Positions 1 through 63,331 of a stretch of DNA of 64,000 bases are shown in pieces; position 1 is the first letter of the stretch, and each line of letters starts with the position of its first letter. The notes under the pieces were generated by a model that had not been told where the DNA came from, made no database searches, and saw nothing but the letters and a program-made list of their open reading frames with translations. Made by a program: the position numbers and the translations under genes. The DNA is from Collimonas humicola (GTDB taxonomy: Bacteria > Pseudomonadota > Gammaproteobacteria > Burkholderiales > Burkholderiaceae_D). The DNA is taken from positions 1 to 64,000 of the forward strand of contig NZ_JAGQEE010000007.1 of NCBI RefSeq assembly GCF_018304945.1, read 5' to 3'.

Positions 1-46
1 AGTCGACTTTCGCGATGCTTTTTCGCGAAAGTCGACTCTGACCCCA
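1..46. repeat. Palindromic intergenic repeat, copy 1 (cut by window edge)
   Basis: Inverted repeat with arms AGTCGACTTTCGCGA (1-15) and TCGCGAAAGTCGACT (22-36), followed by CTGACCCCA up to 46. It matches the right half of the palindromes at 129-183, 57437-57496 and 63274-63331. The left outer arm (TGGGGTCAG) should lie just outside the window. REP/MITE-like element; function unknown. Confidence 0.8.
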
Positions 47-128
47 CATGACGGATTCGGAGAAAGATAGAACGCGCTACATGGATTTGTTTTCTAACGA
101 GGCGGCATGTACTCCGTAGCCCGCTAAG

Positions 129-183
129 TGGGGTCAGAGTGAAGTTTCTGCAAAAAGCACGCAGAAAGTTCACTCTGACCCCA
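129..183. repeat. Palindromic intergenic repeat, copy 2
   Basis: Outer arms TGGGGTCAGAGTGAA (129-143) and TTCACTCTGACCCCA (169-183) are perfect inverted repeats. An inner stem TTTCTGC (145-151) / GCAGAAA (161-167) closes a loop. It lies just past the 3' end of the response-regulator gene. The 82 bases between copies 1 and 2 hold no gene that I can see. The left flank (TGTACTCCGTAGCCCGCTAAG) reappears, reverse-complemented with small changes, beside the copy at 63274. Confidence 0.9.
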
Positions 184-43377: not shown

Positions 43378-43663
43378 GTTTTGTCTCCGTGTCGTTATAG
43401 GTTTTTTGAGCGCGCACGCTGCGAGCCGGCTTATCTTCTGTGATAACGCGGATGTTTCCCAACGCAATTATTAGATGGGCCCATCGCATATTCAGATAAG
43501 TCCTACAGGCGCATGGGCAAGCGGCCGGATGGCGGCGGCGCGCCGTCCACAGCGTGTGCAGAGAAAGGAATTCCGGAGGGATTTGCCAGTAGAATGTCAG
43601 GCACAGCAGTGCATGAAATACAGACAACGCGCTGCCAAGATAACTACATCACAGGAGATACCC

Positions 43664-44629
43664 ATGGACCGTCGCTGCCTGCCATTAAATGCATTGCGCG
43701 CTTTCGAGGCGGCCGGCAAGCACCTGAGCGTGACCGCCGCGGCCAACAGCCTGTTCGTCTCGCAGAGCGCCGTCAGCCGCCATATCCTGACGCTGGAAGC
43801 CTTGCTCGGCGTGAAGCTGTTTGAACGCAAGCACCAGCACCTGGAGCTCACTGAAGCAGGGCGGGCGCTGCTGCCGGTGGTGAACAAGTCCTTCGACCGC
43901 ATCGAGCATGTGCTGAAAGACATTCTCAAGGACGGCGCCGAGTCGCGCCGCGTGCTGCACATCCAGATGCCGTCGACCTTTGCGCATAACCTGGCGGTGC
44001 CGATCCTGCGCGAATTCAGGAATATCTTTCCGGACGTGATGCTGGACCTGGTGATCCCCAACAAGGTCGGCATGCCGGATATCAACAGCGATATCGCGGT
44101 GGTGTATTCCAAGCCTGAAGTCAACGACCTGATCGCCGACCTGCTCTGGCATGTGCGGCTGACGCCGCTATGCCATCCCTGCCTGCTGCAGGCGGCCAAC
44201 GCCGCCAGCCTGGCGGACTTCGTGGCCGGCAACGAGATCGTGCACGTGATCCTGGAAGGGCAGCCGCGGCATCGCCTGTGGGACCGTTTCGTGCGGCAGG
44301 CGGAATTGCCCAAGGTATCGGTAGATCGCGGCCTGGTGTTCGAGACCGCCAACCTGGCGGCGCAGTATGCGATGAGCGGCACCGGCATCGCCTTGCTCGA
44401 TCCCTTGCTGTTCCAGGACGAGCTGTGCAGCGGCGCGCTGGTGCAGCCGTTCGACGCCTGGGTCGACGACGGCTACGGCTACTACCTGCTGACCCATTCC
44501 GACGATCTGCTGGACGAAACGATTGCCTCGTTCCGCTCCTGGATGATCCAGCGCTTCGCCAATTCTTCGCTGGAGCTGCAGCACCTGGTGCGGCGCACCG
44601 GCCTGCCTGCCGCCGCGGCGCAGGCCTAG
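43664..44629 (+). CDS. LysR-family regulator, GcvA-like
   Basis: 321 aa from the ATG at 43664 (AGGAG at 43653-43657); a longer frame from 43475 lacks conservation. [23 protein letters not shown], then a ligand domain (from about 93: [20 protein letters not shown]). GcvA-like features include [20 protein letters not shown]. Divergent from the porin and convergent with the ABC operon, so either could be a target. Confidence 0.87.
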
Positions 44630-45474
44630 GCCGGCTGGCTGCCGCCGCTGGAGCGCCGTTCGACGAAGCGCCTGACGTAATCGTCGGCAGGGCGGTTGAG
44701 AATGTCGTCGGCGCTGCCGACCTGCACCAATACGCCGTCGCGCAAGATGGCGATCTGGGCGCCGATATGGATCGCTTCATCCAGGTCGTGGGTGATGAAG
44801 ACGATGGTCTTGTTGAAGCGCTCCTGCAGCACCAGCAGCTGGTCCTGCATTTCCGCGCGTATCAGCGGATCGAGCGCGCTGAAGGCTTCGTCCATCAGGA
44901 TGATGTCGGTATCGGCCGCCAGCGCCCGCGCCAGGCCGACCCGCTGGCGCATGCCGCCCGACAGCTGGTCCGGATAGGCCTTGGAATAGCCCTTCAGGCC
45001 GACCCGTTCCAGCCACTCCTGGGCCCGTTCATGCGCCTCTTTCTTTTTCACGCCGCGCGTCAGCAGGGCAAAGGCGGTATTGTCCAGCACCGACCAGTGC
45101 GGCAGCAGGCCGAAACTCTGGAACACCATGCTGATCTTGTTGCGGCGCAGCTGGCGCAAGCCGTCGGCATCGAGCGTCAGGATGTTTTCGCCGTCGATCA
45201 GGATTTCGCCCCGGGTCGGATCGATCAGGCGGTTGAAATGCCGCACCAGGGTCGACTTGCCGGACCCGGAAAGGCCCATGATGACGGAGATCTTCGCTTC
45301 CGGAATCTCCAGTGAAATATCGCGCAGGCCGACATTGCAGCCGGTCTGCTGCAGGACTTCCGCCTTGCTCTTGTCCTGCCGCAGCAGGTCCAGCGCGGTT
45401 GCGCAATCTGCGCCAAACACTTTGTAGATGTTGCGTACTGAAATCTTGCTTGGAGTCGTGTGTGCTTGATTCAT
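44626..45474 (-). CDS. proV: Quaternary-amine ABC transporter ATP-binding protein
   Basis: 282 aa. Walker [11 protein letters not shown], signature LSGGMRQRV, Walker [14 protein letters not shown], switch His in FITHDLDEA. ProV/OpuAA type by the N-terminal [16 protein letters not shown] extension. It lacks the CBS domains of E. coli ProV, being shorter. Four bases after the permease stop. Its stop shares a CTAG with the stop of the convergent LysR gene. Confidence 0.92.
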
Positions 45475-45477
45475 GAT

Positions 45478-46350
45478 TTATTCCGGCTTGGTCAGTTGCG
45501 AGCGCTGGCGGCGGTTCATGCCGTAGGCCTGGGTGATGCGGTCGATCACGATCGCCAGGATGACGACGGCTACGCCGGCGTGGGCGCCCTTGCCGAAATC
45601 GAGATTGGTCAGCCCTTGCAGGATATCCTCGCCCAGGCCGCGCGCGCCGATCATCGAAGCCACCACCACCATGGCCAGCGCCAGCATGGTGGTCTGGTTG
45701 ATGCCTGCCATGATGCTGGGGCGCGCCAGCGGCAGCTGTACCCACATCAGCAGCTGGAACTTGGTGGTGCCGAAGGACCAGGCGGCGTCGCGGGTTTCCT
45801 GGTCGACCTGGCGGATGCCCAGCTCGGTCAGGCGTATCAGCGGCGGCAGCGCGTAGATCACGGTGGCCAGCACTGCAGGCACCTTGCCGATGCTGAACAG
45901 CATCACCGCCGGCAGCATGTAGACGAACATGGGAAAGGTCTGCATCACATCCAGCAGCGGCAGCAGCAGGCGCGAGAGCAGCTTGCTGCGCGCCATCATG
46001 ATGCCGATGGGGATGCCGATGACCAGCGAAATGATGATGGAGACCAGCATGATGCTGAGCGTCTGTATGGTCTTTTCCCACAAGCCCAGGCAGCCGATGA
46101 AATACAACGCCAGCACGAAAGCCAGGCTCAGGCGCACCCGGCGCAGGGCGTGATAGCTAATCAGGCCGACCGCCGCCAGCACCAGCCAGGGCGGTATCGA
46201 TTGCAGGAAACTTTCCAGCGGCACCATCAGGTAGCGCAGCATGAAGGTGGAAATGTCATGCAGGCCGTCGCCGTACTTCTGGACGATGCTGCTGATACCG
46301 GAATTTAAGACTTCGGAAAATGAAATCGGGATAAAGAATTCGACAGACAT
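45478..46350 (-). CDS. proW: Quaternary-amine ABC transporter permease
   Basis: 290 aa from the start at 46350 (AAGGAA upstream). About six or seven helices, with the ABC permease EAA-type loop (RQVDQETRDAAWSFGTTKFQ) and GINQTTMLALAMVVVASMIG characteristic of ProW/OpuAB. Moves glycine betaine, choline or related compounds with the ProV and ProX partners. Confidence 0.92.
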   Translation of the reverse strand: MSVEFFIPISFSEVLNSGISSIVQKYGDGLHDISTFMLRYLMVPLESFLQSIPPWLVLAAVGLISYHALRRVRLSLAFVLALYFIGCLGLWEKTIQTLSIMLVSIIISLVIGIPIGIMMARSKLLSRLLLPLLDVMQTFPMFVYMLPAVMLFSIGKVPAVLATVIYALPPLIRLTELGIRQVDQETRDAAWSFGTTKFQLLMWVQLPLARPSIMAGINQTTMLALAMVVVASMIGARGLGEDILQGLTNLDFGKGAHAGVAVVILAIVIDRITQAYGMNRRQRSQLTKPE

Positions 46351-46480
46351 GCTGATTCCTTCTGAAAGCACGATGTTGCAAGCCGATGGCGAGCGGGTGC
46401 GGCGAATACGATGAGATGGCCAGAGGCGGGATCAAGCCCGCTGCCAGCATAGCGCAGCAGCAGGCCTGAGGGGGAGTTGC

Positions 46481-47509
46481 TTACAGCTTGGTTTCGACTT
46501 TTTGCGCGACGTCGGCCGGCACCCACTGCGTCCACAGCGCTTTGTTCTTTTGCAGAAACTCCTTGGCCAGCACGGAACCGCCGACCTTACGCTCGCCCAT
46601 TTCGGTGATCGCATGGTTGACGATGTCGGCCGGCACCGAGAGCTTGCTGAAGAAGGCGATGATGTCCGGCGCGCCCTTGATGAACGGGGTAGAGACGCCG
46701 ATGGTCAGCTTGAAGGACGGCGTGCCGGTGCCGCAGACATCGTCGGTGGTGCTGTTCTGCACGGTCTTCCAGCATTTCTCCGTGAATTCCGGCTCCTGCA
46801 GCTGGACAAATTTATACTTGCCCATCAGGCCGGCCGGCGACCAGTAGTAGAAAAGGATAGGCTTGCCGCGCTCGTAAGCCGAGGAAATGGTGGCGTCCAG
46901 CGCGCCGCCGGTGCCGGGACGGAAGTTGGTGTAGCTGGCGGCCAGCTTGTACGCCTTGAATTTCTGGTTGTTGATGCGCTCGCAATCCCAGCCGGCAGGG
47001 CAGTTGAGGAAGCGGCCCTTGGCCGGATCTTCATCGTCGCTGAACAGGTCTTTGTATTTCGGCAGGTCGGCCACCGATTTCAAGCCAGGAGCGACCGCCT
47101 TGATGCCGCGCTTGGGATCGCCGTTGACTACGTAGTCCGGCACGAACCAGCCTTCGCGGGTGCCGCCGGCCAGGATATTGCCGACCAGTTCGATCTTGCC
47201 GTCGCTACGGCCCTTCTTGATGACGTTGGTGCGGTCCCATTGCTCGACCCAGACCTGCAAATCGTTCGACACCAGCGCGGTCTCGGTCACCGCGGTGCTG
47301 CCGGTGACGCTCTCGGTCTTGCAGCCGTAACCGTTGGCGACGATGAAATTGGCGATTTCGGTGAAGAACTGCGCGCTCTCCCAGGTGACGCCGGCGAACT
47401 TGACCGGCTTGCCTTCTGTGCACCATTGCGGAGTGGCGGTGGCTTGCGCCGCGCCGGCTGCCAGCGTCAGCAGCAGGGCGCCGGCGCATTTGTTGATGAT
47501 GTTTTGCAA
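46481..47509 (-). CDS. proX: Quaternary-amine ABC substrate-binding protein
   Basis: 342 aa. Signal peptide cleaved after AQA (LLTLAAGAAQA). ProX/OpuAC-type domain: VKFAGVTWESAQFFTEIANF, LQVWVEQWDRTN and LFYYWSPAGLMGKYKFVQL, rich in Trp/Tyr that can form a cation cage. Two cysteine pairs (PAGWDCER, EKCWKTV) fit disulfides. It precedes proW and proV in the same operon. Confidence 0.9.
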   Translation of the reverse strand: MQNIINKCAGALLLTLAAGAAQATATPQWCTEGKPVKFAGVTWESAQFFTEIANFIVANGYGCKTESVTGSTAVTETALVSNDLQVWVEQWDRTNVIKKGRSDGKIELVGNILAGGTREGWFVPDYVVNGDPKRGIKAVAPGLKSVADLPKYKDLFSDDEDPAKGRFLNCPAGWDCERINNQKFKAYKLAASYTNFRPGTGGALDATISSAYERGKPILFYYWSPAGLMGKYKFVQLQEPEFTEKCWKTVQNSTTDDVCGTGTPSFKLTIGVSTPFIKGAPDIIAFFSKLSVPADIVNHAITEMGERKVGGSVLAKEFLQKNKALWTQWVPADVAQKVETKL

Positions 47510-47625: not shown

Positions 47626-49077
47626 TTACAAACCCCCCATGCACAGGTACTTCAATTCCAGGTATTCGTCGATACCGTATTTGCCGCCTTCGCGGCCCAG
47701 CCCGGATTGCTTGACGCCGCCGAACGGCGCTTCCGCATGCGAGATGACGCCGGTGTTGATGCCGACCATGCCGACTTCCAGCGCTTCGGCCACGCGCCAT
47801 ACGCGCGCCATGTCGCGGCTGTAGAAGTAGGCGGACAGGCCGAACTCGCTAGCGTTGGCCAGCGCGATCGCTTCTGCTTCGCTGTCGAAACGGAACAGGC
47901 CGGCCACCGGACCGAAGGTTTCTTCCTGCGCCAGCTGCATCTCTGGCGTGGCGTCCAGCAGCACGGTCGGCTGGTAAAAGGTGCCGCCGAGCGCATGGCG
48001 GGCGCCGCCGATGGCCAGCCGGGCGCCCTTGGCCAGGGCGTCGCCTACGTGTTCCTCCACTTTGCGCAGGGCATCGCTGTCGATCAAAGGCCCCTGGGTG
48101 GCGCCGTCCGTAGTGCCGGGAGCCACTTTCAAGGCCGCCACGCGCGCCGTCAGCTCGGCGGCGAAGGCGTCGTACACGCCGGCTTGCACCAGGATGCGGT
48201 TGGCGCATACGCAAGTCTGCCCGGTATTGCGGAATTTCGATGCCATCGCGCCATCGGCGGCGGCATCCAGGTCGGCGTCGTCGAACACGATAAATGGCGC
48301 ATTGCCGCCCAGCTCCAGCGATAGTTTCTTCAGGGTATCGGCCGATTGCCGCGCCAGCAGGCGGCCGACCGCGGTCGAGCCGGTGAACGACAGCTTGCGC
48401 ACCACGTCGCTGGCAGTCAGGACACCGCCGATCTGCACGGCGTCGCCGGTGATCACGTTCAACACGCCGGCAGGTACGCCCGCCTGCTGCGCCAAGTAGG
48501 CCAGCGCCAAGGCAGACAAGGGAGTTTGCTCGGCCGGCTTGAGAATCATGGTGCAACCCGCCGCCAGCGCCGGAGCGGCCTTGCGGGTGACCATCGCCAG
48601 CGGGAAATTCCACGGCGTGATGGCGGCGGTCACGCCGACTGGCTGCTTGATCACCACGATGCGGCGGTCATTGGCCGGTGACGGCACCACGTCGCCATAG
48701 CTGCGCCGCGCTTCTTCGGCAAACCATTCGATGAAGGAGGCGGCATAGGCGACCTCGCCGCGGGCTTCGGCCAGCGGCTTGCCTTGTTCGGCTGTCATCA
48801 GCTGGGCCAGGTCTTCCTGGCTGGACATCACCAGTTCGTACCATTTGCGCAAGATGTTGCTGCGTTCCTTGGCGGTACGCTGGCGCCAGGCAGGCCAGGC
48901 AGCGTCGGCGGCAGCGATGGCGCGCCGGGTTTCGGCGGCGCCCATGTCCGGCACGCTGGCGATGACTGCGCCGCTGGCGGGGTTGGCGACATCGAAGCGG
49001 GCCTGGCTGTCTGCATCCTGCCATTCGTTGCCGATCAGGGCCTGTTGCCGGAGAAGCTGGGGATTTTGCAATTGCAT
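47626..49077 (-). CDS. gabD: NAD(P)+ succinate-semialdehyde dehydrogenase
   Basis: 483 aa from the start at 49077 (MQLQNPQLLRQQALIGNEW). Aldehyde-dehydrogenase motifs: ELGGNAPFIVFDDADLD (catalytic Glu), NTGQTCVCANRILVQ (catalytic Cys), and ETFGPVAGLFRF. The start region and PYG-type C terminus fit the GabD branch, which oxidises succinate semialdehyde from GABA and related routes. Upstream of proXWV on the same strand. Confidence 0.87.
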   Translation of the reverse strand: MQLQNPQLLRQQALIGNEWQDADSQARFDVANPASGAVIASVPDMGAAETRRAIAAADAAWPAWRQRTAKERSNILRKWYELVMSSQEDLAQLMTAEQGKPLAEARGEVAYAASFIEWFAEEARRSYGDVVPSPANDRRIVVIKQPVGVTAAITPWNFPLAMVTRKAAPALAAGCTMILKPAEQTPLSALALAYLAQQAGVPAGVLNVITGDAVQIGGVLTASDVVRKLSFTGSTAVGRLLARQSADTLKKLSLELGGNAPFIVFDDADLDAAADGAMASKFRNTGQTCVCANRILVQAGVYDAFAAELTARVAALKVAPGTTDGATQGPLIDSDALRKVEEHVGDALAKGARLAIGGARHALGGTFYQPTVLLDATPEMQLAQEETFGPVAGLFRFDSEAEAIALANASEFGLSAYFYSRDMARVWRVAEALEVGMVGINTGVISHAEAPFGGVKQSGLGREGGKYGIDEYLELKYLCMGGL

Positions 49078-49363: not shown

Positions 49364-50359
49364 ATGCAAACTGTCCGCTTCGGCCGCACCGGCCTCAAAG
49401 TCTCGCGTTTCTGCCTTGGCACCATGTCGATGGGTTCATCGAAGTGGAAGGGCTGGGTGCTGGATGAAGACAAGACCGCGCCTATCCTGAAGAGCGCGCT
49501 CGATCTCGGCATCAATTTTTTCGACATGGCCGACTGGTATTCCAACGGCGCCAACGAAGAAGTGGTCGGCCGCACGCTGCTCAAGCTGAAGCAGCGCGAC
49601 AGCCTGGTGCTGGCCACCAAGGCCTTCTACGCCATGAGCGAGGATGCCAACGACCAGGGCTCGTCGCGCAAGCACCTGATGGCCTCGATCGACCGTTCGC
49701 TGCGCCGCATCGGCACCGACTACATCGACCTTTACCTGCTGCACGCCTTCGATCCGCACACGCCGCTGGCCGAGACCATGGAAGCCTTGCACGACATCGT
49801 CAAGTCCGGCAAGGCGCGCTATATCGGCGCCTGCACCATGTATGCCTGGCAATTCGCCGAGATGAATGCGATTGCGCGTGAAAACAACTGGACTGAATTC
49901 GTCAACATGCAATGCCAGTACAGCTTGCTGTATCGGGAAGAAGAGCGCGAGATGATGCCTTACTGCCAGGACAAGGGCATCGCGGTGTCGACTTTCAGCC
50001 CGCTGGCGCGCGGCTACCTGACCGGCGTGCAAAAGAGCGCGCGCACCGAGCACGATCCCTTCCTGTCGCAGTTCTTCGGCGACGAGATCGACGTCGAGAT
50101 CGCCAACCGCGTGGTCAAGATCGCCGCCGACCGGGCAGTGCAGCCCGGGCAGGTCGCCATGGCCTGGGTGGCGCAGAACAGCAATTCGACCGTGCCCATC
50201 ATCGGCGCCGACAGTCCGGAGCAGCTGCGCCTGGCGGTGGAGGCCGGCGAAATCGTGCTCAGCGCCGAGGAACGCCAGTACCTGGAGCAGGCCTACCGGC
50301 CGCGCGACATGATCAACGATTACAACGAAGTACGTCGTCCACGCAGTTACAAATCCTGA
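49364..50359 (+). CDS. Aldo/keto reductase, YajO/AKR11-like
   Basis: 331 aa from the ATG at 49364. Catalytic tetrad visible: Asp and Tyr in FFDMADWYSNGANE, Lys in LATKAFY, His in LYLLHAFDPHT. Cofactor-binding end GADSPEQLRLAVEAGEI. NADPH-dependent reduction of an aldehyde or ketone; substrate unknown. First gene of the cluster, 33 bases before the Fae homologue. Confidence 0.85.
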   Translation: MQTVRFGRTGLKVSRFCLGTMSMGSSKWKGWVLDEDKTAPILKSALDLGINFFDMADWYSNGANEEVVGRTLLKLKQRDSLVLATKAFYAMSEDANDQGSSRKHLMASIDRSLRRIGTDYIDLYLLHAFDPHTPLAETMEALHDIVKSGKARYIGACTMYAWQFAEMNAIARENNWTEFVNMQCQYSLLYREEEREMMPYCQDKGIAVSTFSPLARGYLTGVQKSARTEHDPFLSQFFGDEIDVEIANRVVKIAADRAVQPGQVAMAWVAQNSNSTVPIIGADSPEQLRLAVEAGEIVLSAEERQYLEQAYRPRDMINDYNEVRRPRSYKS

Positions 50360-50392
50360 ATACATAACAACTTAACGAGACAAGGAATCCAG

Positions 50393-50896
50393 ATGATCAA
50401 GATTGGCGAAGGTTTTTGCGGCAGCGGCCCGAATGCGGCACACATCAATCTCTTCCTCGGCCCGAAAAACGGTCCCATGGGAACCGCTGCCGTGACCGCA
50501 GCCAGCAGCCCGGGGCCGGGACATATCCCGTTCCAGGCGGTGCTCAAGCCCAACATGCCGGTCAAGCCCACCACCGTTTTCATCGGCAAGGCCGTGCTGA
50601 CCACGCCGAACCATGAAAACATGACCTGGGGCCCGGCCCAGGCCGGCGTCGCCCACGGCGTCACCAAGGCCCTGCTGGACGGCGTGCTGCCGCCGGAAGC
50701 GGAAGACGAATGGATCGCCGTGGCGGCAGTGTGGGTCAACCCGCTGGCCGACGACGCCGACCAGGTGTATGCCAACAATTGCGAAGCTGCCTACCTGGCG
50801 GCGCAGCGGGCGCTGGCCAGGGGCTGGCCCAGCCGCAAGGAACTGGCGGATGCGCTGGGCAGCATTTCCAATCCCTTCTATACGCCGAAAAGATAG
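50393..50896 (+). CDS. Formaldehyde-activating-enzyme (Fae) homologue
   Basis: 167 aa, the usual Fae length. VGDG-type opening (IGEGFCGSGPNAAHINLFLG) with His17, the residue proposed as catalytic in Methylorubrum Fae, then VLKPNMPVKPTTVFIGKAVL and MTWGPAQAGVAHGVTKALLD, which follow the Fae pattern closely. True Fae condenses formaldehyde with tetrahydromethanopterin. No tetrahydromethanopterin genes are in this window, so this is better called a Fae-like protein. Co-directional in the cluster between a reductase and an aldehyde dehydrogenase. Confidence 0.82.
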   Translation: MIKIGEGFCGSGPNAAHINLFLGPKNGPMGTAAVTAASSPGPGHIPFQAVLKPNMPVKPTTVFIGKAVLTTPNHENMTWGPAQAGVAHGVTKALLDGVLPPEAEDEWIAVAAVWVNPLADDADQVYANNCEAAYLAAQRALARGWPSRKELADALGSISNPFYTPKR

Positions 50897-50962
50897 CGTT
50901 CCAGGGACCAGTCCGAGAAGCTGCTATCTTGGGCCGGTCCCTTCATTTTCAGAGAGTCTGTC

Positions 50963-52387
50963 ATGCGCACCTATAAGAATTTCGTCGGCAACCGGTTTGT
51001 GGACGCAGTCAGCGATGAAGTCATCGTCGTGCGCGATCCTGCCACCGAACAACTGGTGGGCCAGGTCGCCGCCGCCACGCCGGAGCAGGCGCGGACGGCG
51101 GTCGATGCCGCCGCCGTCGCCCAAAAATCATGGCGCAAATTGCCGGCCGTGGAACGCGCCAGGCATCTGCACAAGCTGGCCGATGCTTTGGTGGCGCGCG
51201 CCGGCGAGATCGGCCAGGCGCTGGCCGCCGAATCCGGCAAGAGCCTGGAGGACGCCAGCAATGAAGCCATCTACGCTGCCGAGATCACTCGCTATCACGC
51301 CGAATGGGCGCGCCGGATCGAGGGAGAAATCATTCCCAGCGACTCGCCATCGGAAAACCTGCTGCTGATGCGTGAGCCGATCGGCGTGGTGGCTTGCCTG
51401 ATTCCATTCAACTATCCGGTCTACACCTTGCTGCGCAAGGTTGCTCCTGCCTTGATCGCGGGGAATACGGTGGTGGTCCGTCCCAGCAACAACACGCCGT
51501 GCTCGGCTTTTGAAATTGCGCAGGCAGTGCTGGATGCCGGCTTGCCGCCGGGCGTGATCAACATCCTCAGCATGCAGCACGAGGTGGCGGCCAGCGTCTG
51601 CACCCATCCCAAGGTGGGCATGATCACGCTGACCGGCAGCGTAGCCGCCGGCCGCCAGGTGCTGGAATATTCCAAGGCGAATATCGCCAAGTCTTCGCTG
51701 GAGCTGGGCGGGAAAACGCCGGTGATTGTCGAAGCGGATGCCGACCTGGAATTGGCGGCGAATGAAATCACTGCTTCCAAGACCACCAACTGCGGGCAGC
51801 TTTGCACGGCGGTGGAGCGCGTGTATGTGAATCGCAAGGTGGCGGCAAAGCTGATTGCGTTGCTCAGGGAAAAATTCAGCAAGCGGCAATGCGGCAACCG
51901 GGCCGAGCAGCCGTCGCACATGGGGCCGCTGATCAATGCGGCGGCGCGCAGCAATACGCATGGCATGGTGGAGCGGGCAATCGCCGCCGGCGCCACGCTG
52001 GAAACCGGCGGCGCAATCCCGGCCGGCAAGGGCTTTTTCTATCCGCCGACTTTGCTTAGCAACTGCCGCCAGGAGATGGAGATCGTGCAGGAAGAAGTGT
52101 TCGGCCCTGTGCTGTGCGTGATCGAGTACGACAGCGTCGAGCAGGCGCTGGAGCTGGCCAACGATCATCAGTTCGGCTTGTCCTCGATCATCTACACCGC
52201 CGATTATCGGACCGCGATGCAGGTCGCCAACAACATCGAAGCCGGCGAGCTCTACATCAACCGGATTCCGGCCGATCCTTACCAGGGCTATCACGCCGGC
52301 TGGAAGCGTTCCGGCCTCGGCGGCGACGACGGCAAGCACGGCATGCTGGAGTTCACCCAGACCCGCCTGGTGGTAGTGAAGTATTGA
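50963..52387 (+). CDS. Aldehyde dehydrogenase, AldA (lactaldehyde/glycolaldehyde)-like
   Basis: 474 aa. Catalytic Glu in ELGGKTPVIVEADADLE and Cys in TNCGQLCTAVERVYV. The ending GYHAGWKRSGLGGDDGKHGM closely recalls E. coli AldA, which oxidises lactaldehyde and glycolaldehyde. Preceded by AGAGAG. Fits removal of a two- or three-carbon aldehyde produced by the cluster. Confidence 0.85.
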   Translation: MRTYKNFVGNRFVDAVSDEVIVVRDPATEQLVGQVAAATPEQARTAVDAAAVAQKSWRKLPAVERARHLHKLADALVARAGEIGQALAAESGKSLEDASNEAIYAAEITRYHAEWARRIEGEIIPSDSPSENLLLMREPIGVVACLIPFNYPVYTLLRKVAPALIAGNTVVVRPSNNTPCSAFEIAQAVLDAGLPPGVINILSMQHEVAASVCTHPKVGMITLTGSVAAGRQVLEYSKANIAKSSLELGGKTPVIVEADADLELAANEITASKTTNCGQLCTAVERVYVNRKVAAKLIALLREKFSKRQCGNRAEQPSHMGPLINAAARSNTHGMVERAIAAGATLETGGAIPAGKGFFYPPTLLSNCRQEMEIVQEEVFGPVLCVIEYDSVEQALELANDHQFGLSSIIYTADYRTAMQVANNIEAGELYINRIPADPYQGYHAGWKRSGLGGDDGKHGMLEFTQTRLVVVKY

Positions 52388-52437
52388 GTTTTGCCGGCAC
52401 AGCGTTCGCAGAAACGCGCCGGTCTACCGGAGGAGAC

Positions 52438-53736
52438 ATGATAGATACCTTTGCAATAGCAGCAGGTACGCCCGTGCTGCAGAAGAAGCAAGACTTGAAG
52501 CGCTATTTTCAGTTTGCGTTGTTGCTGCTCGCCGCAGGCACCATCTATCCGATGCTGTATCTGCGGCAGAATTACGAACTGACCATTCTCGATGCCTTTC
52601 GCATCAGCAAGGAAGAACTGGAAAACAGCTATGCCATGCTGGGCTTGATCTATGTGATTTCCTACGCCCCCAGCGGCTGGCTGGCCGACAAGATATCGGT
52701 GCGCATCCTGATTCCGTTTTCGCTGACGCTGGTCGGCGTGCTGGGATTATGGTTCGCCACTTTTCCCGACAGGCAGTTCCTGCCGCTGATCTTCGCTGGT
52801 TGGGGCATAGGCGCCGGACTGACCTTCTGGGCAGCGCTGATCAAGAGCGTCAAGATGCTGGCAAAGCGTGAGGAACAGGGACGCTTCTTCGGCATCCTCG
52901 ATGGCGGCCGTGGTTTGATCGAAGCCTTGCTGGCCACCGCAGCGCTCAGCATTTTTGCCTACATGACGCATCAGTCGGCTTCCAGCCGGGAGGCGATGCA
53001 ACCTATCGTTCGCCTGTATTCGACCGGCTGCCTGCTGATTGCGGTGCTGATCTTTGTTTTCCTGGAAAAGCGCGGCCAGGCTGCGGATGAGAGCGCCGCC
53101 AGGCAAGATAAAGTCGGGTTGTTTGCCGGCCTGCGCATCCTGCTCGGCATTCCCCAGTTGTGGCTGATGGCCTTCGTCATCTTTACCGGCTATCAGCTTT
53201 TCTGGGTAACTTATTCTTTTTCCTCCTTCCTGCGTCAGGGACACGGCATGGATGCCATGGCGGCCGGCACCATCACCGTCATCAAATTATGGATGCGGCC
53301 GATAGGCGGTATCGGCGGCGGCTTCCTGGGCAACCGGTTTTCCAATGAAAACGTGCTGGCAGTCGCCATGCTGCTGGCAACGGCAGGACTGATCGGCCTG
53401 ATGATCTTGCCGCAGCATGCCAATACCTATGCGCTGCTTGCGCTCGTGATGCTGATCGGCACCATGACTTACACCATACGTGGCCTCTACTGGGCGCTGC
53501 TGGACAAATGCCAGGTGCCGGCATCTGTGGTTGGCTTGGCGATCGGCGTGGTGTCCATGATCGGCTACCTGCCGGATATCTTCCTGCCGAAGATCAATGC
53601 CGCACTGTTGGGCATGTATCCGGGATTGGGCGGCTTCAAAGTGTATTACGGCTATATCGTCCTGTGCGGCGTGCTAGGCGCCGCCGGCGTGTTCTATTTT
53701 AAAAAATCTACCAAGAAGGAAAGGGCGCAGCCATGA
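52438..53736 (+). CDS. Major facilitator transporter, YihN-like
   Basis: 432 aa from the ATG at 52438, with a strong GGAGGAG upstream. Twelve hydrophobic segments, MFS loop 2-3 pattern (GWLADKISVRILIPFSLTLV), and GIGAGLTFWAALIKSVKMLA as in YihN-type carriers. Likely imports the substrate of this cluster. Overlaps the next gene by four bases (ATGA). Confidence 0.85.
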   Translation: MIDTFAIAAGTPVLQKKQDLKRYFQFALLLLAAGTIYPMLYLRQNYELTILDAFRISKEELENSYAMLGLIYVISYAPSGWLADKISVRILIPFSLTLVGVLGLWFATFPDRQFLPLIFAGWGIGAGLTFWAALIKSVKMLAKREEQGRFFGILDGGRGLIEALLATAALSIFAYMTHQSASSREAMQPIVRLYSTGCLLIAVLIFVFLEKRGQAADESAARQDKVGLFAGLRILLGIPQLWLMAFVIFTGYQLFWVTYSFSSFLRQGHGMDAMAAGTITVIKLWMRPIGGIGGGFLGNRFSNENVLAVAMLLATAGLIGLMILPQHANTYALLALVMLIGTMTYTIRGLYWALLDKCQVPASVVGLAIGVVSMIGYLPDIFLPKINAALLGMYPGLGGFKVYYGYIVLCGVLGAAGVFYFKKSTKKERAQP

Positions 53737-54977
53737 AAATAGTATCAATGCAATCCCATATTGTCGCCGTGCCGCCGCCGTATTTCGGCGGCATGTACTG
53801 GATTTTCGTGACGCTGAAGACGGACTGCGGCATTGAAGGCGTCGGCGAGATATATGCCTCGACCTTTCATCCCAAGGTCATGGTGCCGGCCATCGCCGAT
53901 GTTTTCGAACGCCATCTGCTGGACCATGATCCGCACCACATCGAGCGTTTTTTCCGTTCGGCCTATTCGAGCGGTTTCACCCAGCGTCCCGACCTGACCA
54001 TGATGGGCATCGTCAGCGGCCTGGAAATGGCCTGCTGGGACATCATCGGCAAGGCGGCCAACAAGCCAGTCTATGAACTGATCGGCGGCCGCGTGCACGA
54101 ACGGCTGCGTTCCTATACCTACCTGTATCCGAAGAACAGCAAGGGCGAGTACGACTATGACGACGTCGACCTGGCGGCGGAATGCGCGGTGGACATGATG
54201 AAGCAGGGCTTTACCGCGGTGAAGTTCGATCCCGCGGGTCCATACAGTGCTTATTCCGGCCACCATCTGTCGCTGGAAGTGATGGACAAGTCGGAAGAAT
54301 TCTGCCGCAAGATCCGCGACGCGGTCGGCAGCAAATGCGATCTGTTGTTCGGCACTCACGGCCAGATGTCGACCGCTTCCGCCGTGCGGCTGGCCAAGCG
54401 CCTGGAAAAATACGACCCGCTGTGGTTTGAAGAGCCGGTGCCGCCGGGCCAGTCCGACGCCATGGCGGTGGTGGCGGGCAAGACCAGCATTCCGATCGCC
54501 ACCGGTGAACGCCTCACCACCAAGTACGAGTTCTTCGACCTGCTGAACCGTGGCGGCGCTTCGATCCTGCAGATGAACCTGGGCCGCGTCGGCGGCATCC
54601 TGGAAGCCAAGAAAATTGCCGCCATCGCCGAAGTGTATTACGCGCAGATCGCGCCGCATCTGTACAACGGCCCGATCGGCGCCGCCGCCAGCATCCAGCT
54701 GGCGACCGCCACGCCGAATTTCCTGATCCAGGAAAGCATCCGCAACTGGGACGGCTTCCATTCCGAAATCCTGAAGAAGCCGATCGCCTGGGAGGACGGC
54801 TTCATCATCCCGTCGACCGAACCCGGCCTTGGGGTAGAGTTGAACATGGAGGTGGTGGCGGCCAACTCACCGTATACCGGCGACAAGCTGCACATTTCCA
54901 TGGACCCCAAGCCGTTCGACGTCAAGCATCAATCCTCGGACAGCTGGAAAAACCGTTGGCGCGCAGAGAGTAAATAA
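53733..54977 (+). CDS. Enolase-superfamily (mandelate-racemase type) sugar-acid dehydratase
   Basis: 414 aa. N-terminal capping domain, then a TIM barrel with VKFDPAG (catalytic Lys region), LFGTHGQM and WFEEPVPPGQ (metal ligands), GERLTTKYEF (Glu ligand), and APHLYNGPIGAAASIQLATA carrying the catalytic His. The pattern is that of the D-galactonate/altronate-type dehydratases that turn aldonic acids into 2-keto-3-deoxy acids. The precise substrate cannot be told. Shares one base with the GMC gene. Confidence 0.85.
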   Translation: MKIVSMQSHIVAVPPPYFGGMYWIFVTLKTDCGIEGVGEIYASTFHPKVMVPAIADVFERHLLDHDPHHIERFFRSAYSSGFTQRPDLTMMGIVSGLEMACWDIIGKAANKPVYELIGGRVHERLRSYTYLYPKNSKGEYDYDDVDLAAECAVDMMKQGFTAVKFDPAGPYSAYSGHHLSLEVMDKSEEFCRKIRDAVGSKCDLLFGTHGQMSTASAVRLAKRLEKYDPLWFEEPVPPGQSDAMAVVAGKTSIPIATGERLTTKYEFFDLLNRGGASILQMNLGRVGGILEAKKIAAIAEVYYAQIAPHLYNGPIGAAASIQLATATPNFLIQESIRNWDGFHSEILKKPIAWEDGFIIPSTEPGLGVELNMEVVAANSPYTGDKLHISMDPKPFDVKHQSSDSWKNRWRAESK

Positions 54978-56602
54978 TGGCTTTTGATTTCATCATCGTC
55001 GGCGCCGGCTCGGCCGGCTGCATCCTGGCCAACCGGCTGAGCGAATGCGGCAAGTACAGCGTGCTGCTGCTGGAAGCCGGCGGCAGGGACGATTCCTGGT
55101 GGCTGAAGATACCGGTCGGTTTCGCCCGCACTTACTACAATCCCGACTACAACTGGATGTACTACAGCGAGCCGGAAGCGCAGATGGCCGGGCGCCGGCT
55201 GTATGCGCCGCGCGGCAAGGTGGTGGGCGGCTCAGGCAACATCAACGCCATGATCTACGTGCGCGGCCAGGCCAGCGATTTCGACGACTGGGAAGCGGCG
55301 GGCAACCCGGGCTGGGGCTATCGGGATGTGCTGCCTTACTTCAAGAAGCTGGAAGCCCATCCGCTCGGCGACACCAGTTATCACAACAGCAAGGGCCTGA
55401 TCGGCGTTACCCAGATGAAGCACGGCGCCCATCCGATCTGCCAGGATTATCTGCAGGCGTGCAGGGAGCTCGGTTATCCGCTGAACGATGATTTCAACGG
55501 CGCCAGCTTCGAAGGCGCCGGCATCTACGAAGCGAATATCCGCAAGGGCAAGCGCGATTCCAGCAGCTACGCCTATCTGCATCCGGCGCTGAAGCGGCCC
55601 AACCTGACGCTGGAGTGCCATGCCCAGGCCGAGCAGATCCTGTTCGATCCGGACAAGCGCGCGGCCGGCGTTGCGGTCATGCAGAACGGCTTGCGCCGTG
55701 TGTTCAAGGCCAACAAGGAGGTGATCCTGGCCGCTGGCGCGGTGGACTCGCCCAAGCTGCTGCAGTTGTCGGGCGTGGCCGATGCAGAACTGCTGGCCGC
55801 GCACGGCATCCCGCTGGTGCAGCATCTGCCGGGAGTGGGTAAGAACCTGCAGGATCATCTGTGCGTGTCGTTCTATTTCAAGGCCAACAAGAAGACGCTC
55901 AACGACGAGCTGGGTTCGTTGCTGGGCCAGGCCAGGGCTGGCATCCAATACTTGTTCAGGCGCAGCGGCCCGCTGGCGATGAGCGTCAACCAGGCCGGCG
56001 GTTTCTTCAAGGGCAGCGCTGAGGAGCCGCATCCCAACCTGCAGCTGTACTTCAATCCGCTGTCTTACCAGATTCCCAAGAATCCGCTGGCAAAGCTGAA
56101 ACCGGATCCTTATTCCGGTTTCCTGCTGTTCTTCAATTCGTGCCGTCCCAGCAGCCGCGGCGCAATTGAAATCGCCAGCAAGGATGTCGTCGTGCCGGCC
56201 AGGATCATGCCGAACTACCTGAGCACGCAAAAGGATCAGGACGAAGCAATCCAGGGCGGCGCCCTGATACGCAAGCTGATCCAGGCGCCGGCTTTCAAGA
56301 AGATTATCGTGGAAGAGATGTCGCCTGCCGCGGCGGTGAGCGACGATGCCAGCATGCTGCAATTCTTCCGCGAGCAAGCGGGTTCGATCTACCACCTGTG
56401 CGGCTCTTGCGCGATGGGCCCGGACCAGCAAAAGTCGGTGGTCTCCAGCACGCTGAAAGTGCATGGCGTCAAAGGCCTGCGCGTGATCGACGCCTCGGTT
56501 TTCCCCAACATCACTTCGGGGAATATCCATGCGGCGGTGATGATGGTGGCGGAAAAGGGTGCAGAGCAGATATTGACCGATTATCGCCAGCGTGGAATGT
56601 AG
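54977..56602 (+). CDS. GMC-family FAD oxidoreductase
   Basis: 541 aa. FAD dinucleotide motif DFIIVGAGSAGCILANRLSE, GMC signature 1 around RGKVVGGSGNINAMIYVRGQ, signature 2 AAGAVDSPKLLQLSGV, and C-terminal HLCGSCAMG with NITSGNIHAAVMMVAEKGAE. Choline-dehydrogenase-like enzymes oxidise alcohols or polyols, passing electrons to a quinone or cytochrome. Substrate unknown. Confidence 0.87.
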   Translation: MAFDFIIVGAGSAGCILANRLSECGKYSVLLLEAGGRDDSWWLKIPVGFARTYYNPDYNWMYYSEPEAQMAGRRLYAPRGKVVGGSGNINAMIYVRGQASDFDDWEAAGNPGWGYRDVLPYFKKLEAHPLGDTSYHNSKGLIGVTQMKHGAHPICQDYLQACRELGYPLNDDFNGASFEGAGIYEANIRKGKRDSSSYAYLHPALKRPNLTLECHAQAEQILFDPDKRAAGVAVMQNGLRRVFKANKEVILAAGAVDSPKLLQLSGVADAELLAAHGIPLVQHLPGVGKNLQDHLCVSFYFKANKKTLNDELGSLLGQARAGIQYLFRRSGPLAMSVNQAGGFFKGSAEEPHPNLQLYFNPLSYQIPKNPLAKLKPDPYSGFLLFFNSCRPSSRGAIEIASKDVVVPARIMPNYLSTQKDQDEAIQGGALIRKLIQAPAFKKIIVEEMSPAAAVSDDASMLQFFREQAGSIYHLCGSCAMGPDQQKSVVSSTLKVHGVKGLRVIDASVFPNITSGNIHAAVMMVAEKGAEQILTDYRQRGM

Positions 56603-56662
56603 GCATTCCACTCTACCCCTAATTTTTCCGATCCTAATTTTTTATTGTTTGAAAGAAAAGCC

Positions 56663-57349
56663 ATGAAAAACATTTTTATTACCGGCGGCACCAGTGGCAT
56701 CGGCGCGGCCACGGCACGCCATGCGATTGCTGCCGGCCACAATGTATTCGTCACCGGCCGCAGCGAGCCGCGACTGCAGGCTTTCCTGGATTCCTTTCAA
56801 GGCGAACAGCGTTCTCGCATTTTCGGCGAGGTGGTCGATGCCGGTTCCTGGGAGCAGACCGAGTCTGCGGTGCAGGCATGCCTGCAGCGTTGGGGCAGGC
56901 TGGATGTGGCTTTCGCCAATGCCGGATTTTCCGCACGTGGCGATCTGGCCAGCGGCGATCCGGAGAAATGGCGCGAGATGCTGATGACGAATGTGCTGGG
57001 CGCAGCGCTGCTGATAAAGGCCACCTTGCCGGCGCTTACCACGGCACGCGGCTATTTCCTGTTCACCGGCAGCACCGCCGGCCGCAAGGTTTATCCGGGC
57101 AATCTCTATACCGCAACCAAATGGGCTGTCACCGGCCTGGCGGAAAGCCTGCGCCAGCAAGTGGTGGGAAGCGGGGTGCGTGTCTCCGTCATTTCCCCGG
57201 GTCATGTAGATACCCCGCTGTGGGCCGAGCGTCCAGACGCCATGATGGAAGCAGATGACGTCGCGCGCGCGGTGATGTGGATACTGGACCAGCCCGATCA
57301 CATCGATGTCAGCGAAATGATTATCCGCGCGCTCGGGCAGGAGTTTTAG
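56663..57349 (+). CDS. Short-chain dehydrogenase/reductase
   Basis: 228 aa from the ATG at 56663. Rossmann motif ITGGTSGIGAATARHA, NAG-type segment FANAGFSARG, and the catalytic Tyr-x3-Lys in LYTATKWAVTG (Ser in FTGSTAG). NAD(P)-linked oxidation or reduction. Last gene of the cluster; palindromic repeats follow. Confidence 0.87.
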   Translation: MKNIFITGGTSGIGAATARHAIAAGHNVFVTGRSEPRLQAFLDSFQGEQRSRIFGEVVDAGSWEQTESAVQACLQRWGRLDVAFANAGFSARGDLASGDPEKWREMLMTNVLGAALLIKATLPALTTARGYFLFTGSTAGRKVYPGNLYTATKWAVTGLAESLRQQVVGSGVRVSVISPGHVDTPLWAERPDAMMEADDVARAVMWILDQPDHIDVSEMIIRALGQEF

Positions 57350-57380: not shown

Positions 57381-57396
57381 TTGGGGTCAGAGTCGA
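57381..57396 (+). repeat. Half copy of the palindromic repeat
   Basis: TTGGGGTCAGAGTCGA matches the left arm of the family, but no matching right arm follows before the complete copy at 57437. Confidence 0.8.
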
Positions 57397-57436
57397 TTTA
57401 TTTTGGCGACTGCCTGTATTTGTACTGCTTGGGACG

Positions 57437-57496
57437 TCAAATGGGGTCAGAGTAATTTTCGCAAAAAGCCGCGAAAAAAACTCTGACCCCATTTGA
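57437..57496. repeat. Palindromic intergenic repeat, copy 3
   Basis: 17-bp arms TCAAATGGGGTCAGAGT (57437-57453) / ACTCTGACCCCATTTGA (57480-57496), inner stem TTTTCGC (57456-57462) / GCGAAAA (57471-57477). It lies between the convergent SDR and lysS genes and could act as a transcription terminator for both. Confidence 0.9.
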
Positions 57497-61678: not shown

Positions 61679-62281
61679 ATGCTGAGCGTGGGAATACTGG
61701 TATTTGACGATGTGGAGATCCTGGATTTTTCCGGACCCTATGAAGTGTTTTCAACTGCCGCGCGGGTCCATGGCCGGAGCAATGGCAACGGCGCCGCGGC
61801 GAATCTGTTCAAGTGCTTCCTGGTCGCGCCCGCCATGCGGCCGGTGCGTGCAAGAGGAGGAATGAAAGTGTTGCCGGATTGCGTGCTGACGCCGTCTTCC
61901 GATCTCGACGTGCTGCTGGTGCCGGGTGGCGACGTGGCGGCTATCCTCAACAATGACGCGGTAATCGCGTGGATTGCCGCCCAGTCTGACAGCACGGCGA
62001 TCATGGCTTCGGTCTGTACCGGCGCCTTCCTGCTGGCCAAGGCCGGCCTCCTGAACGGGCTGGATGTGACGACGCATTGGGAAGACCTGGAGCAATTGCA
62101 AGAGGGTTTTCCGAGCCTGAACGTGAAGAGCGGCGCAGCCTGGATAGATTGCGGTAAAGTAGTGACCTCCGGCGGCATATCGGCGGGCATCGACATGAGC
62201 TTGCACCTGGTCGAGCGCTTGGCTGGACGTCCGCTGGCCGACGCCACCGCCAGACAGATGGAGTACCGATGGCTGCAATAG
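61679..62281 (+). CDS. DJ-1/PfpI-family protein
   Basis: 200 aa. VGILVFDDVEILDFSGPYEV is the N-terminal signature, VLLVPGG follows, and the nucleophile elbow Cys is in ASVCTGAFLLAKAGLL. Glutamine-amidotransferase-like fold; members include isonitrile hydratases and glyoxalases. Ends 13 bases inside the GlxA-like gene, so they are translated together. Confidence 0.85.
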   Translation: MLSVGILVFDDVEILDFSGPYEVFSTAARVHGRSNGNGAAANLFKCFLVAPAMRPVRARGGMKVLPDCVLTPSSDLDVLLVPGGDVAAILNNDAVIAWIAAQSDSTAIMASVCTGAFLLAKAGLLNGLDVTTHWEDLEQLQEGFPSLNVKSGAAWIDCGKVVTSGGISAGIDMSLHLVERLAGRPLADATARQMEYRWLQ

Positions 62282-63276
62282 CTGACAATTCGCGCCGGGC
62301 CGGGACCACGATCCCGGTCTATTTCCTCCTGCGCGACGCCACCATGACGCTTGACCTGATGGGTCCGGCGGAGGTGCTGCGCTACGCCAACCGGATCGCC
62401 GAGCGCGAAGGCCGCGCCGATTTTTTCGACCTGCGTTATGTCAGCGCGGCCGAGCGCATCAGCACCTCGCTCGGGCTCGGCCTGACCGGATTCGGTCCTT
62501 TGCCGGACAGCCTGCCGCACAACGCCATGGTGGTGCTGCACGGCTGCGTCGGCAGCGACGACGATTTCAGCAGCGCCAACGACCAGCGCGCCGTCGCCTG
62601 GCTGCGCGCCCAATGGCGGGATAGCCATCGCCTGCTGTGCAGCTGCACCGGCGCCTTGCTGGCCGGCTACGCAGGTTTGCTGGACGGCCGCCAGTGCACC
62701 ACGCATCACAGCCATTGCGACGACTTGCGCCGCATCGCGCCGCGCGCCCATGTACTGGAAAACCGCATCTTCGTTGAAGACCGCAATATCTACACCAGCG
62801 CCGGCGTCACCACCGGCATCGACCTGACGCTGCACGTGGTTGCGCAAATCGCCGGCCATGCCCGCAGCGCTTCGATTGCGCGCTCGCTGGTGATCTACAT
62901 GCGCCGCGCCGGCAGCGATCCGCAGCTGTCGCCATGGCAGGCTTGCCGCAATCACTTGCACCCCGCGGTGCACCGGGTGCAGGACGCCGTCATCGGCGAC
63001 CCCGCCCGCGACTGGGACCTGCAGCAGCTGGCCGACATCGCCTGCACCAGCGAACGCCACCTCACCAGGCTGTTCCGCGAACATACCGGCTGCAGCCTGG
63101 TCGACTACATCCAGCGCATCCGCGTCGCCCTGGTGCGCGAACTGCTGACGCAATCCAAGCTCGACATGGAGCAGGTAGCGCAGCAGGCCGGCTTCAATTC
63201 AACCCGCCAGCTAAGACGCGTATGGAGCAAATTCGAAAATTTCCCACCCAGCCAGCAACGCCAGCTCAGTAGTTAA
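62269..63276 (+). CDS. GlxA-type AraC regulator with DJ-1-like domain
   Basis: 335 aa. N-terminal DJ-1/PfpI-like domain (about 13-190; the elbow is LCSCTGALLAGY), C-terminal AraC HTH pair (about 225-330: LQQLADIACTSERHLTRLFR, VAQQAGFNSTRQLRRVWSKF). Probably senses a small molecule and controls the overlapping DJ-1 gene. Its TAA stop (63274-63276) is part of a palindromic repeat. Confidence 0.87.
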   Translation: MAAIADNSRRAGTTIPVYFLLRDATMTLDLMGPAEVLRYANRIAEREGRADFFDLRYVSAAERISTSLGLGLTGFGPLPDSLPHNAMVVLHGCVGSDDDFSSANDQRAVAWLRAQWRDSHRLLCSCTGALLAGYAGLLDGRQCTTHHSHCDDLRRIAPRAHVLENRIFVEDRNIYTSAGVTTGIDLTLHVVAQIAGHARSASIARSLVIYMRRAGSDPQLSPWQACRNHLHPAVHRVQDAVIGDPARDWDLQQLADIACTSERHLTRLFREHTGCSLVDYIQRIRVALVRELLTQSKLDMEQVAQQAGFNSTRQLRRVWSKFENFPPSQQRQLSS

Positions 63277-63331
63277 ATGGGGTCAGAGTCGAATTTTTTG
63301 AAGAACAAAAATTCGACTCTGACCCCATTTA
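63274..63331. repeat. Palindromic intergenic repeat, copy 4
   Basis: Arms TAAATGGGGTCAGAGTCGAA and TTCGACTCTGACCCCATTTA, perfect, with a T-rich/A-rich inner stem. It lies between the convergent GlxA-like and recJ genes. The right flank AGCGGACTACGGAGTACA matches, inverted, the left flank of copy 2. Confidence 0.92.

Follow-up and report, generated by a model that had tools for sequence, protein, structure and literature searches.

A recurring gene cluster of Collimonas humicola that links a divergent Fae subfamily to a betaine-type importer

Gene content and extent of the cluster

We analysed a 64,000-nucleotide stretch of Collimonas humicola DNA (positions 1 to 64,000 of contig NZ_JAGQEE010000007.1; hereafter the window), which lies within a 341-kb contig of a 5.6-Mb genome, and within it a gene cluster built around a homologue of the formaldehyde-activating enzyme (Fae). 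An earlier note on this DNA had described seven genes running in one direction, with overlaps of 4 and 1 bases, as one catabolic cluster. The open reading frames (ORFs) and Pfam families bear out that description for all seven plus-strand genes, from an aldo/keto reductase (AKR) through an SDR (Table 1), with intergenic gaps of 33, 66, 50, -4, -1 and 60 bases; the overlaps are those of the MFS carrier gene with the gene of an enolase-superfamily enzyme (hereafter MR; 4 bases) and of the latter with a GMC oxidoreductase gene (1 base). The Fae gene is the sole PF08714 match in the whole genome. The AKR contains DMADWY, LATKAF and LLHAF, which we take to be the motifs of the AKR catalytic tetrad, and the label 'AldA-like' given to one aldehyde dehydrogenase (ALDH) in the note is supported by its profile score.

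Comparison with other genomes upheld the view of one catabolic set, shared with other lineages, but moved its boundaries. The seven-gene limits were wrong because a GabD-like ALDH and a ProXWV-type importer upstream belong to the set while the SDR does not. The cluster reaches upstream onto the other strand to take in these genes and, probably, a LysR-family regulator beyond them. The SDR had no match of at least 80 bits in any of 34 other loci, including that of the same-genus genome G983, and was ruled out as a member. The LysR gene has a homologue of 92% identity in G983 and one of 50% identity after Fae-ALDH in Ensifer; it likely belongs to the cluster, although the case is weaker than for the other members. 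Its profile matches (NF008352 and TIGR03418, the latter the choline sulfate regulator) begin only at residue 65-70, and the true start is probably some 62 codons into the ORF. Within the window's group we consider it very probable that importer and catabolic genes form a single recurring set.

Table 1. Genes of the cluster and its borders in the window
Feature	Position	Strand	Basis
LysR-family regulator, GcvA-like	43475..44629	+	ORF from first ATG; NF008352 208 bits, TIGR03418 158 bits, both below cut-off
ProV-like ATPase, betaine/choline-type ABC importer	44626..45474	-	TIGR01186 348 bits, cut-off 326.6; recurs with cluster
ProW/ChoW-like permease	45478..46371	-	261 and 254 bits, below both equivalog cut-offs
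ProX-like binding protein, four-tryptophan onium cage	46481..47509	-	nearest solved chain 7yle, 93 bits
GabD-like (succinate-semialdehyde-type) ALDH	47626..49077	-	ATG start at 49077; TIGR01780 724.2 bits, cut-off 646.35
AKR	49364..50359	+	PF00248
Fae-subfamily protein (clade X)	50393..50896	+	PF08714, TIGR03126; His17 kept, Asp19 to Asn
AldA-like ALDH	50963..52387	+	NF007497 535.5 bits, cut-off 500
MFS carrier, galactonate/PgtP-like (weak)	52438..53736	+	PF07690; TIGR00893 56 bits, cut-off 395
Enolase-superfamily (MR/MLE) enzyme, altered metal site	53733..54977	+	PF13378/PF02746; nearest solved 4e4u, 737 bits
GMC flavin oxidoreductase, choline-dehydrogenase-like	54977..56602	+	PF00732/PF05199; NF002550 561 bits, cut-off 605; nearest solved 8b7s
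SDR, adjoins cluster, outside recurring set	56663..57349	+	PF00106

Distribution and neighbourhoods

The Fae homologue belongs to a subfamily, here called clade X, that was found in 40 distinct genomes (the carriers). It occurred in seven of 300 genomes of the order, the window's own included (identity at least 48%), while any Fae match was present in 37 of the 300, and in six of 398 genomes of a phylum sample (E <= 1e-30). Two other families of the order had it in 7/61 and 28/150 genomes and the window's own family in 3/195; it was also present in one metagenome-assembled genome (MAG) and in PLSDB records of Ensifer, Burkholderia, Caballeronia and Streptomyces clavuligerus. Since ten other genomes of the window's genus were listed without it, the distribution is patchy. 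In the Fae tree, moreover, the copies from G874, a member of the window's family, and from G672/G673 nest within another family's group, which suggests transfer of the gene.

Neighbourhoods were compared across 35 loci (28 fetched genomes, the window, five PLSDB records and the MAG) in stretches of 16 to 34 kb, shorter at contig ends; 11 carriers of family f31 were left out of these counts, and where two loci covered the same place (L034/L052, L036/L046) they were entered once. The gene orders varied, the genes stayed together in many genomes, and the scattering that the note had named as a refutation was not seen. Two modules recur, Fae-AKR-GabD and ALDH-(MFS)-MR-GMC, usually with ProXWV or a second MFS carrier. 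Fae was present in all 35 loci, the adjoining AKR in 34 and a GabD-like ALDH near Fae in 30, window included, and the recurrence of Fae with AKR in 34/35 loci argues that the cluster is not a chance arrangement. The AKR exception is S. clavuligerus, where a HIBADH-type reductase takes its place. ProX was found in 13/35 loci, all 13 of which also hold MR and GMC; the ProW group in 14/35, counting a remote S. clavuligerus homologue; and the MFS group of the window's carrier in 12/35. The second MFS (17/35 loci) and the ProW-type permease occurred together in only one locus, of B. multivorans, with 13 and 16 loci holding the permease or the second MFS alone and five neither (p 6e-5, uncorrected); such mutual avoidance fits alternatives for one cargo.

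Four genomes of one family show the order ALDH-(MFS)-MR-GMC-Fae-AKR-GabD-ProX-ProW-ProV, all in one direction, while the modules are separated or inverted in Burkholderia and relatives. Regulator genes sit between GMC and Fae in the two genomes inspected (G283, G117); of the two in G283 (L040:10510-12750), one is of the MocR type and close to the ectoine regulator EhuR (453 bits, cut-off 480), the other of the IclR type and related to BhcR. MocR-type regulators related to EhuR were found in seven of 35 loci (L040 and its relatives L039, L081, L082, L086, L088 and L090). At one further locus (L054, in G460) the Fae-AKR-GabD module adjoins apparent N-acetylglucosamine genes (PTS, deaminase, deacetylase and repressor, assigned by eye from protein starts).

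Open-licence literature yielded no description of this gene set, a weak negative given that only open-licence papers were covered, and one in line with the note's remark that no pathway of this composition had been described. Three papers were set aside: PMC5209427, whose 'formaldehyde-activating' gene is of the glutathione type, and PMC4349456 (on a methylglyoxal regulator) and PMC4744692, which are not relevant to the cluster.

A Fae subfamily with a probably changed pocket

The window's protein passes the cut-offs of both Fae profiles (PF08714, 142.8 bits against 27; TIGR03126, 128.3 bits against 118.05). Clade X members are 45-68% identical to each other (96% within the genus) and about 30% identical to canonical Fae, and 39 of them lie on one side of a branch with support of 95/86, or 94/83 in a second tree with added paralogues. 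The bootstrap of the first tree had not settled and its Streptomyces row is a long branch; the long-branch rows L047 and the second gene of L036, included in the first tree and in the 'canonical' set, were left out of the second, which enters loci L155 and L159 twice.

His17 is the catalytic residue of Fae. It had been reported as kept in the window's protein, and is indeed present there and in all 39 clade X members. Around it, the same 39 sequences share Asp19 to Asn, Asn40 to Pro, Gln74 to His, Met78-Phe79 to Thr-Trp, Phe114 to Trp, Ile115 to Val and His160 to Asn, and 92% have His116 to Asn. Compared with a canonical set of 32 sequences, 24 positions were flagged as switched, 19 of them at >= 90% on both sides; most canonical values stop at 94% because that set includes two odd long-branch rows. 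Of the near-invariant canonical residues (Asp19, Asn40, Gln74, Phe79, His116 and His160 in window numbering), five are changed in 39/39 and His116 in at least 92%.

An AlphaFold model of the monomer, built from six sequences (best of five pLDDT 80, the others 55-72; pTM 0.77), matches the Fae structures 1y60 and 1y5y with TM scores of 0.80-0.83 (0.83 for 1y60), and no other structure matched at E < 0.03. The predicted fold is thus that of Fae, yet many otherwise fixed residues are changed, and from the alignment we infer a pocket rebuilt around the kept His17. The active site of Fae lies between subunits. Relative to the reference enzyme (Fae of M. extorquens, EC 4.2.1.147; 1y5y/1y60), clade X therefore shares the Pfam and NCBIfam family, the fold and His17, but differs in its low identity, separate tree group and switched positions, and in occurring mostly in genomes without mch and ftr.

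A third Fae group lacks His17, with MPEI replacing AHID (nine rows from seven loci, L153-L155 and L159-L162, two being entered twice). These are presumably the Fae2/Fae3 of the literature. Like clade X they diverge from canonical Fae; unlike clade X they have lost His17, and they form their own group, separate in the tree from both others, so that clade X was ruled out as part of this paralogue group. Single and double fae2 and fae3 knockouts of Methyloversatilis grew like the wild type on methanol and methylamine (PMC5023235).

Separately, residues 127-286 of chain B of PDB 8ub7 (290 residues, named Avd) match the window's Fae at 80 bits; this chain may be a Fae-like domain joined to Avd, either naturally or as a construct. 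Avd is a protein of diversity-generating retroelements.

Independence from the tetrahydromethanopterin pathway

Fae is usually taken as a marker of formaldehyde oxidation linked to tetrahydromethanopterin (H4MPT). The note had seen no gene of that pathway near the cluster, and this extends to the whole genome of the window for mch (PF02289) and ftr (PF02741), neither of which had a match; mtdB and fhc were not searched by name. Among the carriers, mch was found in 14 of 40 (one of the nine carriers in a set of 11 genomes, and 13/31 in a second set) and ftr in the same 14, leaving 26, the window's genome among them, with no match to either. Because both genes are missing in 26/40 carriers, clade X appears independent of the pathway, as the note had supposed for the window's protein, and in genomes without mch and ftr it very probably does not serve H4MPT. 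Where the pathway exists, canonical Fae can exist too: G119 has a second Fae match, 3 kb from its mch, that groups with canonical Fae.

Clade X genes are automatically annotated as fae in C. grimmiae and S. clavuligerus. Annotation of one-carbon metabolism from such a gene would mislead, as clade X occurs mostly in genomes without the H4MPT pathway and nearly always has an AKR adjoining it.

The importer and its probable class of cargo

The dimethylsulfoniopropionate (DMSP) importer protein DmpX holds its ligand with Trp35, Thr64, Trp84, Glu113, Trp152, Ala153, Tyr200 and Trp202; replacing Tyr200 by Ala or Phe abolished binding, and betaine, choline and carnitine were hardly bound (PMC10030565). 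The residues of 7yle match this numbering. In the cluster ProX the pocket reads W,T,W,E,W,D,Y,Y,W without exception in 14 copies (from 13 genomes or records, G755 having two): the four cage tryptophans, Tyr200, Thr64 and Glu113 of the DmpXWV system are kept in 14/14, whereas Ala153 is Asp in 14/14. Set against ProX of the E. coli ProU system, the whole-chain scores of the window's protein fall far below the ProX and choline cut-offs. In S. clavuligerus, Fae is accompanied by a betaine importer of another kind, its gene following an ABC system with an OsmF-type binding protein (186 bits, cut-off 400).

Because the cage residues are kept and Ala153 is replaced by Asp in all 14, a cargo with both an onium group and a polar group is supported; that the imported cargo is an onium compound we consider somewhat probable from these residues, and we make no claim for DMSP itself. 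The note had proposed a polyol or sugar acid as substrate. This part of it does not stand well, for the cage of the linked importer is of the sort that takes a positively charged onium group and speaks for a betaine-like substrate over a plain polyol or sugar acid.

An enolase-superfamily enzyme with an altered metal site

The residues of MR were surveyed in 46 fetched sequences (52-100% identity, the window's own included) against E. coli galactonate dehydratase, DgoD, in which the metal ligands are Asp-Glu-Glu. Lys164, Asp166, His209, Glu233, Glu259 and His309 are invariant in 46/46; the MR fold, the two Glu among the three metal ligands and both His of DgoD are kept. The position of DgoD Asp183, however, is Gly in all 46, and the place of Asp258 is mostly Asn or Ala (Asn 25, Asp 10, Ala 10, Gln 1). 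A metal ligand may have moved, perhaps to Asp166, two residues past Lys164, and the enzyme probably catalyses a different reaction from galactonate dehydratase. That name was ruled out by the Gly at 183 and by the equivalog score (247.6 bits, cut-off 311).

Among solved structures, 4e4u (737 bits over 399 residues), 4e5t, 3t4w, 3rcy and 4j3z stand nearest, all of the same subfamily and with family names only, no activity being given in the names of their entries. The cluster offers a testable handle on this group of five structures named without function, because it names partners and a likely class of cargo.

Outside the window's group, MR stood with GMC in 17 of 26 loci (L102, L104 and L148 among them belonging to Fae carriers), and in many cases a LysR gene and either an ALDH or a HIBADH-type reductase accompanied the pair. 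The MR family extends beyond the cluster: the enolase-GMC module is present without Fae in alphaproteobacteria, the MR-bearing stretches read from Ensifer, Shinella, Pararhizobium and Leisingera showed no Fae, and none of the seven MR loci of family f95 had a GMC gene in the stretch read.

A second, distant enolase-superfamily gene (24% identity to the window's MR) lies directly 3' of Fae in the MAG (L032:6372-7676), where the usual MR gene was not in the stretch read, and relatives of it (53-56%) lie within about 8 kb in G755, G791 and G835 (L086:15963-17093; L088:2223-3434; L090:2496-3626). By eye, this second gene has the usual Asp metal-ligand motif that is absent from the window's MR.

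Linkage of the Fae and MR modules

An MR gene of at least 74% identity (E <= 1e-150) was present in 37 of the 40 carriers. In the phylum sample all four genomes with MR at >= 77% identity carry Fae (Fisher p 1.5e-8, not corrected for kinship and with the identity line set after the data were seen), and six of seven PLSDB records with MR at >= 77% have Fae on the same record, among the matches listed. Pairwise distances of the genes were correlated (Fae/AKR 0.93, Fae/GabD-like 0.80, Fae/MR 0.91, MR/GMC 0.92, Fae/ProX 0.77), part of which is the shared ancestry of the genomes.

Several observations weigh against one common function. Three carriers (G673, G441 and G460) had no MR match at E <= 1e-150. 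Of 28 phylum-sample genomes with an MR-subfamily gene (E <= 1e-130, 52-63%), 24 were without clade X Fae (E <= 1e-30), as were, among the 40 of 63 Fae matches listed, 15 of the 16 PLSDB records of Ensifer, Sinorhizobium, Shinella and Pararhizobium that have MR at 71-73%; the sole exception, E. adhaerens CP118611, has Fae and MR about 0.9 Mb apart, again among the matches listed. The modules are separable, the Fae module standing without ProXWV and MR in the stretches read from Ensifer and from G441 and G460 (both of other orders), and the MR-GMC module without clade X Fae in the 35-kb stretch of Caballeronia Lep1P3. In the two members scanned, the second MFS is similar to carriers of aromatic acids and cations, though far below cut-off, and the MR-GMC module of Pararhizobium lies near aromatic-degradation genes. 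ProXWV might serve general osmolyte uptake and lie here for unrelated reasons, and the profile names are family-level only. Because of the 24 phylum-sample genomes and the 15 PLSDB records, the link between Fae and MR is weak outside the window's group, while inside it the link is strong.

Proposed pathway and alternatives

The GabD-like ALDH falls short of the narrower NF008415 (774.9 bits, cut-off 828); enzymes of the GabD-like type suggest a C4 semialdehyde. The nearest solved relatives of the AldA-like ALDH are aldehyde dehydrogenase A (2opx/2hg2, 431 bits), betaine-aldehyde dehydrogenase (338), another AldA (335) and D-glyceraldehyde dehydrogenase (322 bits), which fits a 2-hydroxyaldehyde substrate, without proof. 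For the GMC enzyme, whose closest relatives are BetA and the chloramphenicol-inactivating 8b7s, the name choline dehydrogenase was ruled out by the BetA equivalog (472.2 bits, cut-off 732.1).

We propose, with confidence and doubt nearly balanced, that the genes of the locus form a supercluster for breaking down an onium (betaine-like) compound taken up by the cell, in which Fae works without H4MPT. In its favour, besides recurrence and cage, are the correlated distances, the OsmF-type importer beside the Streptomyces Fae, the mutual avoidance of the two transporter types, the different enolase-superfamily gene after Fae in the MAG and the lack of mch and ftr in 26/40 carriers. The make-up of the cluster, its recurrence and the conserved onium cage can be read from the genomes directly; the remaining steps would follow from family membership, and their order and the substrate are guesses. 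ProXWV would import a small cationic compound that also bears a polar or carboxylate group. Two enzyme pairs would each take CH2OH to COOH, namely GMC with the AldA-like ALDH, and AKR (or the HIBADH type) with the GabD-like ALDH. The first pair would oxidise a CH2OH beside CHOH to a 2-hydroxy acid, from which MR would take the alpha proton and eliminate the beta group. A direct split to pyruvate and a leaving group is more likely than a route over a 2-keto-3-deoxy acid, because the genes that commonly recur include no aldolase. The second pair (with the HIBADH type in Streptomyces) would take what remains, a hydroxy or semialdehyde fragment that is probably C4, to an acid. Between these steps the Fae-subfamily protein would act on or carry the carbonyl fragment, using the kept His17 and the rebuilt pocket, and would not feed the H4MPT pathway.

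The more specific form of this proposal, with the Fae subfamily as a pterin-free enzyme (lyase, hydratase or carbonyl carrier), an onium pathway not described before and an MR with a moved ligand that splits its substrate by beta-elimination, we consider rather unlikely to hold in all its parts. Betaine lipids would offer a concrete case, though a very long shot: from the head group glyceryl-trimethylhomoserine, GMC and ALDH would yield a glycerate ether, MR would release pyruvate and homoserine betaine, and AKR with the GabD-like enzyme would oxidise the C4 unit.

A polyol or sugar-acid route is the alternative that survives best, and is itself unlikely. GMC and ALDH would turn a polyol of C4 or longer into an aldonic acid, MR would dehydrate this to a 2-keto-3-deoxy acid, and a C4 product, 4-hydroxy-2-oxobutanoate, would split into pyruvate and formaldehyde for Fae. 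It gains from the relationship of MR to galactonate dehydratase and from the AldA-like ALDH, and it gives Fae a formaldehyde role, but the Gly in place of the metal ligand Asp183 in 46/46 speaks against it, the gene groups present in more than seven of the 35 loci included no aldolase or kinase (rarer groups being mostly without annotation), and the onium importers would be left without explanation.

That two independent operons, Fae-AKR-GabD for one substrate and ALDH-MFS-MR-GMC for another, were brought together by the clustering of genome islands seems improbable. Each module does occur alone, the second in records of Ensifer, Shinella, Pararhizobium and Leisingera and in many genomes of other classes, the first in G441 and G460, and in the E. 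adhaerens replicon the two lie far apart; their co-occurrence in 37/40 carriers, even on different contigs (G119, G255), and the correlated divergence of the modules argue the other way.

The least probable of the alternatives is that Fae, as a trap or sensor, binds formaldehyde from N-demethylation elsewhere in the cell while the cluster supplies betaine: the Fae fold (TM 0.83 to 1y60), His17 in 39/39 and the linked betaine-type importers agree with it, but no demethylase or other evident maker of formaldehyde was among the gene groups in more than seven of the 35 loci (rarer groups again mostly without annotation), FrmA, the glutathione-linked formaldehyde dehydrogenase of the window's genome (625 bits, cut-off 544), offers formaldehyde another exit, 24 positions including Asp19 are switched from canonical Fae, and mch and ftr are missing in 26/40. 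The glycolaldehyde or formaldehyde product of the earlier note, with Fae trapping or sensing it, is neither borne out nor contradicted by the sequences.

Other features of the window

About 4 kb from the cluster, two adjacent and slightly overlapping genes of DJ-1/AraC-type regulators lie on the plus strand (61679-63276), the first without the DNA-binding half; they are related to GbdR/FtrA, far below cut-off, and any link with the cluster is putative. They are separated from the cluster by a gene for a class II tRNA synthetase (lysS by eye) and one that, also by eye, is prfB-like. Finally, GGGGTCAGAGT and its reverse complement form short inverted pairs at window positions 35-182, 57383-57490 (just past the cluster) and 63279-63326, which resemble a dispersed REP-type repeat.

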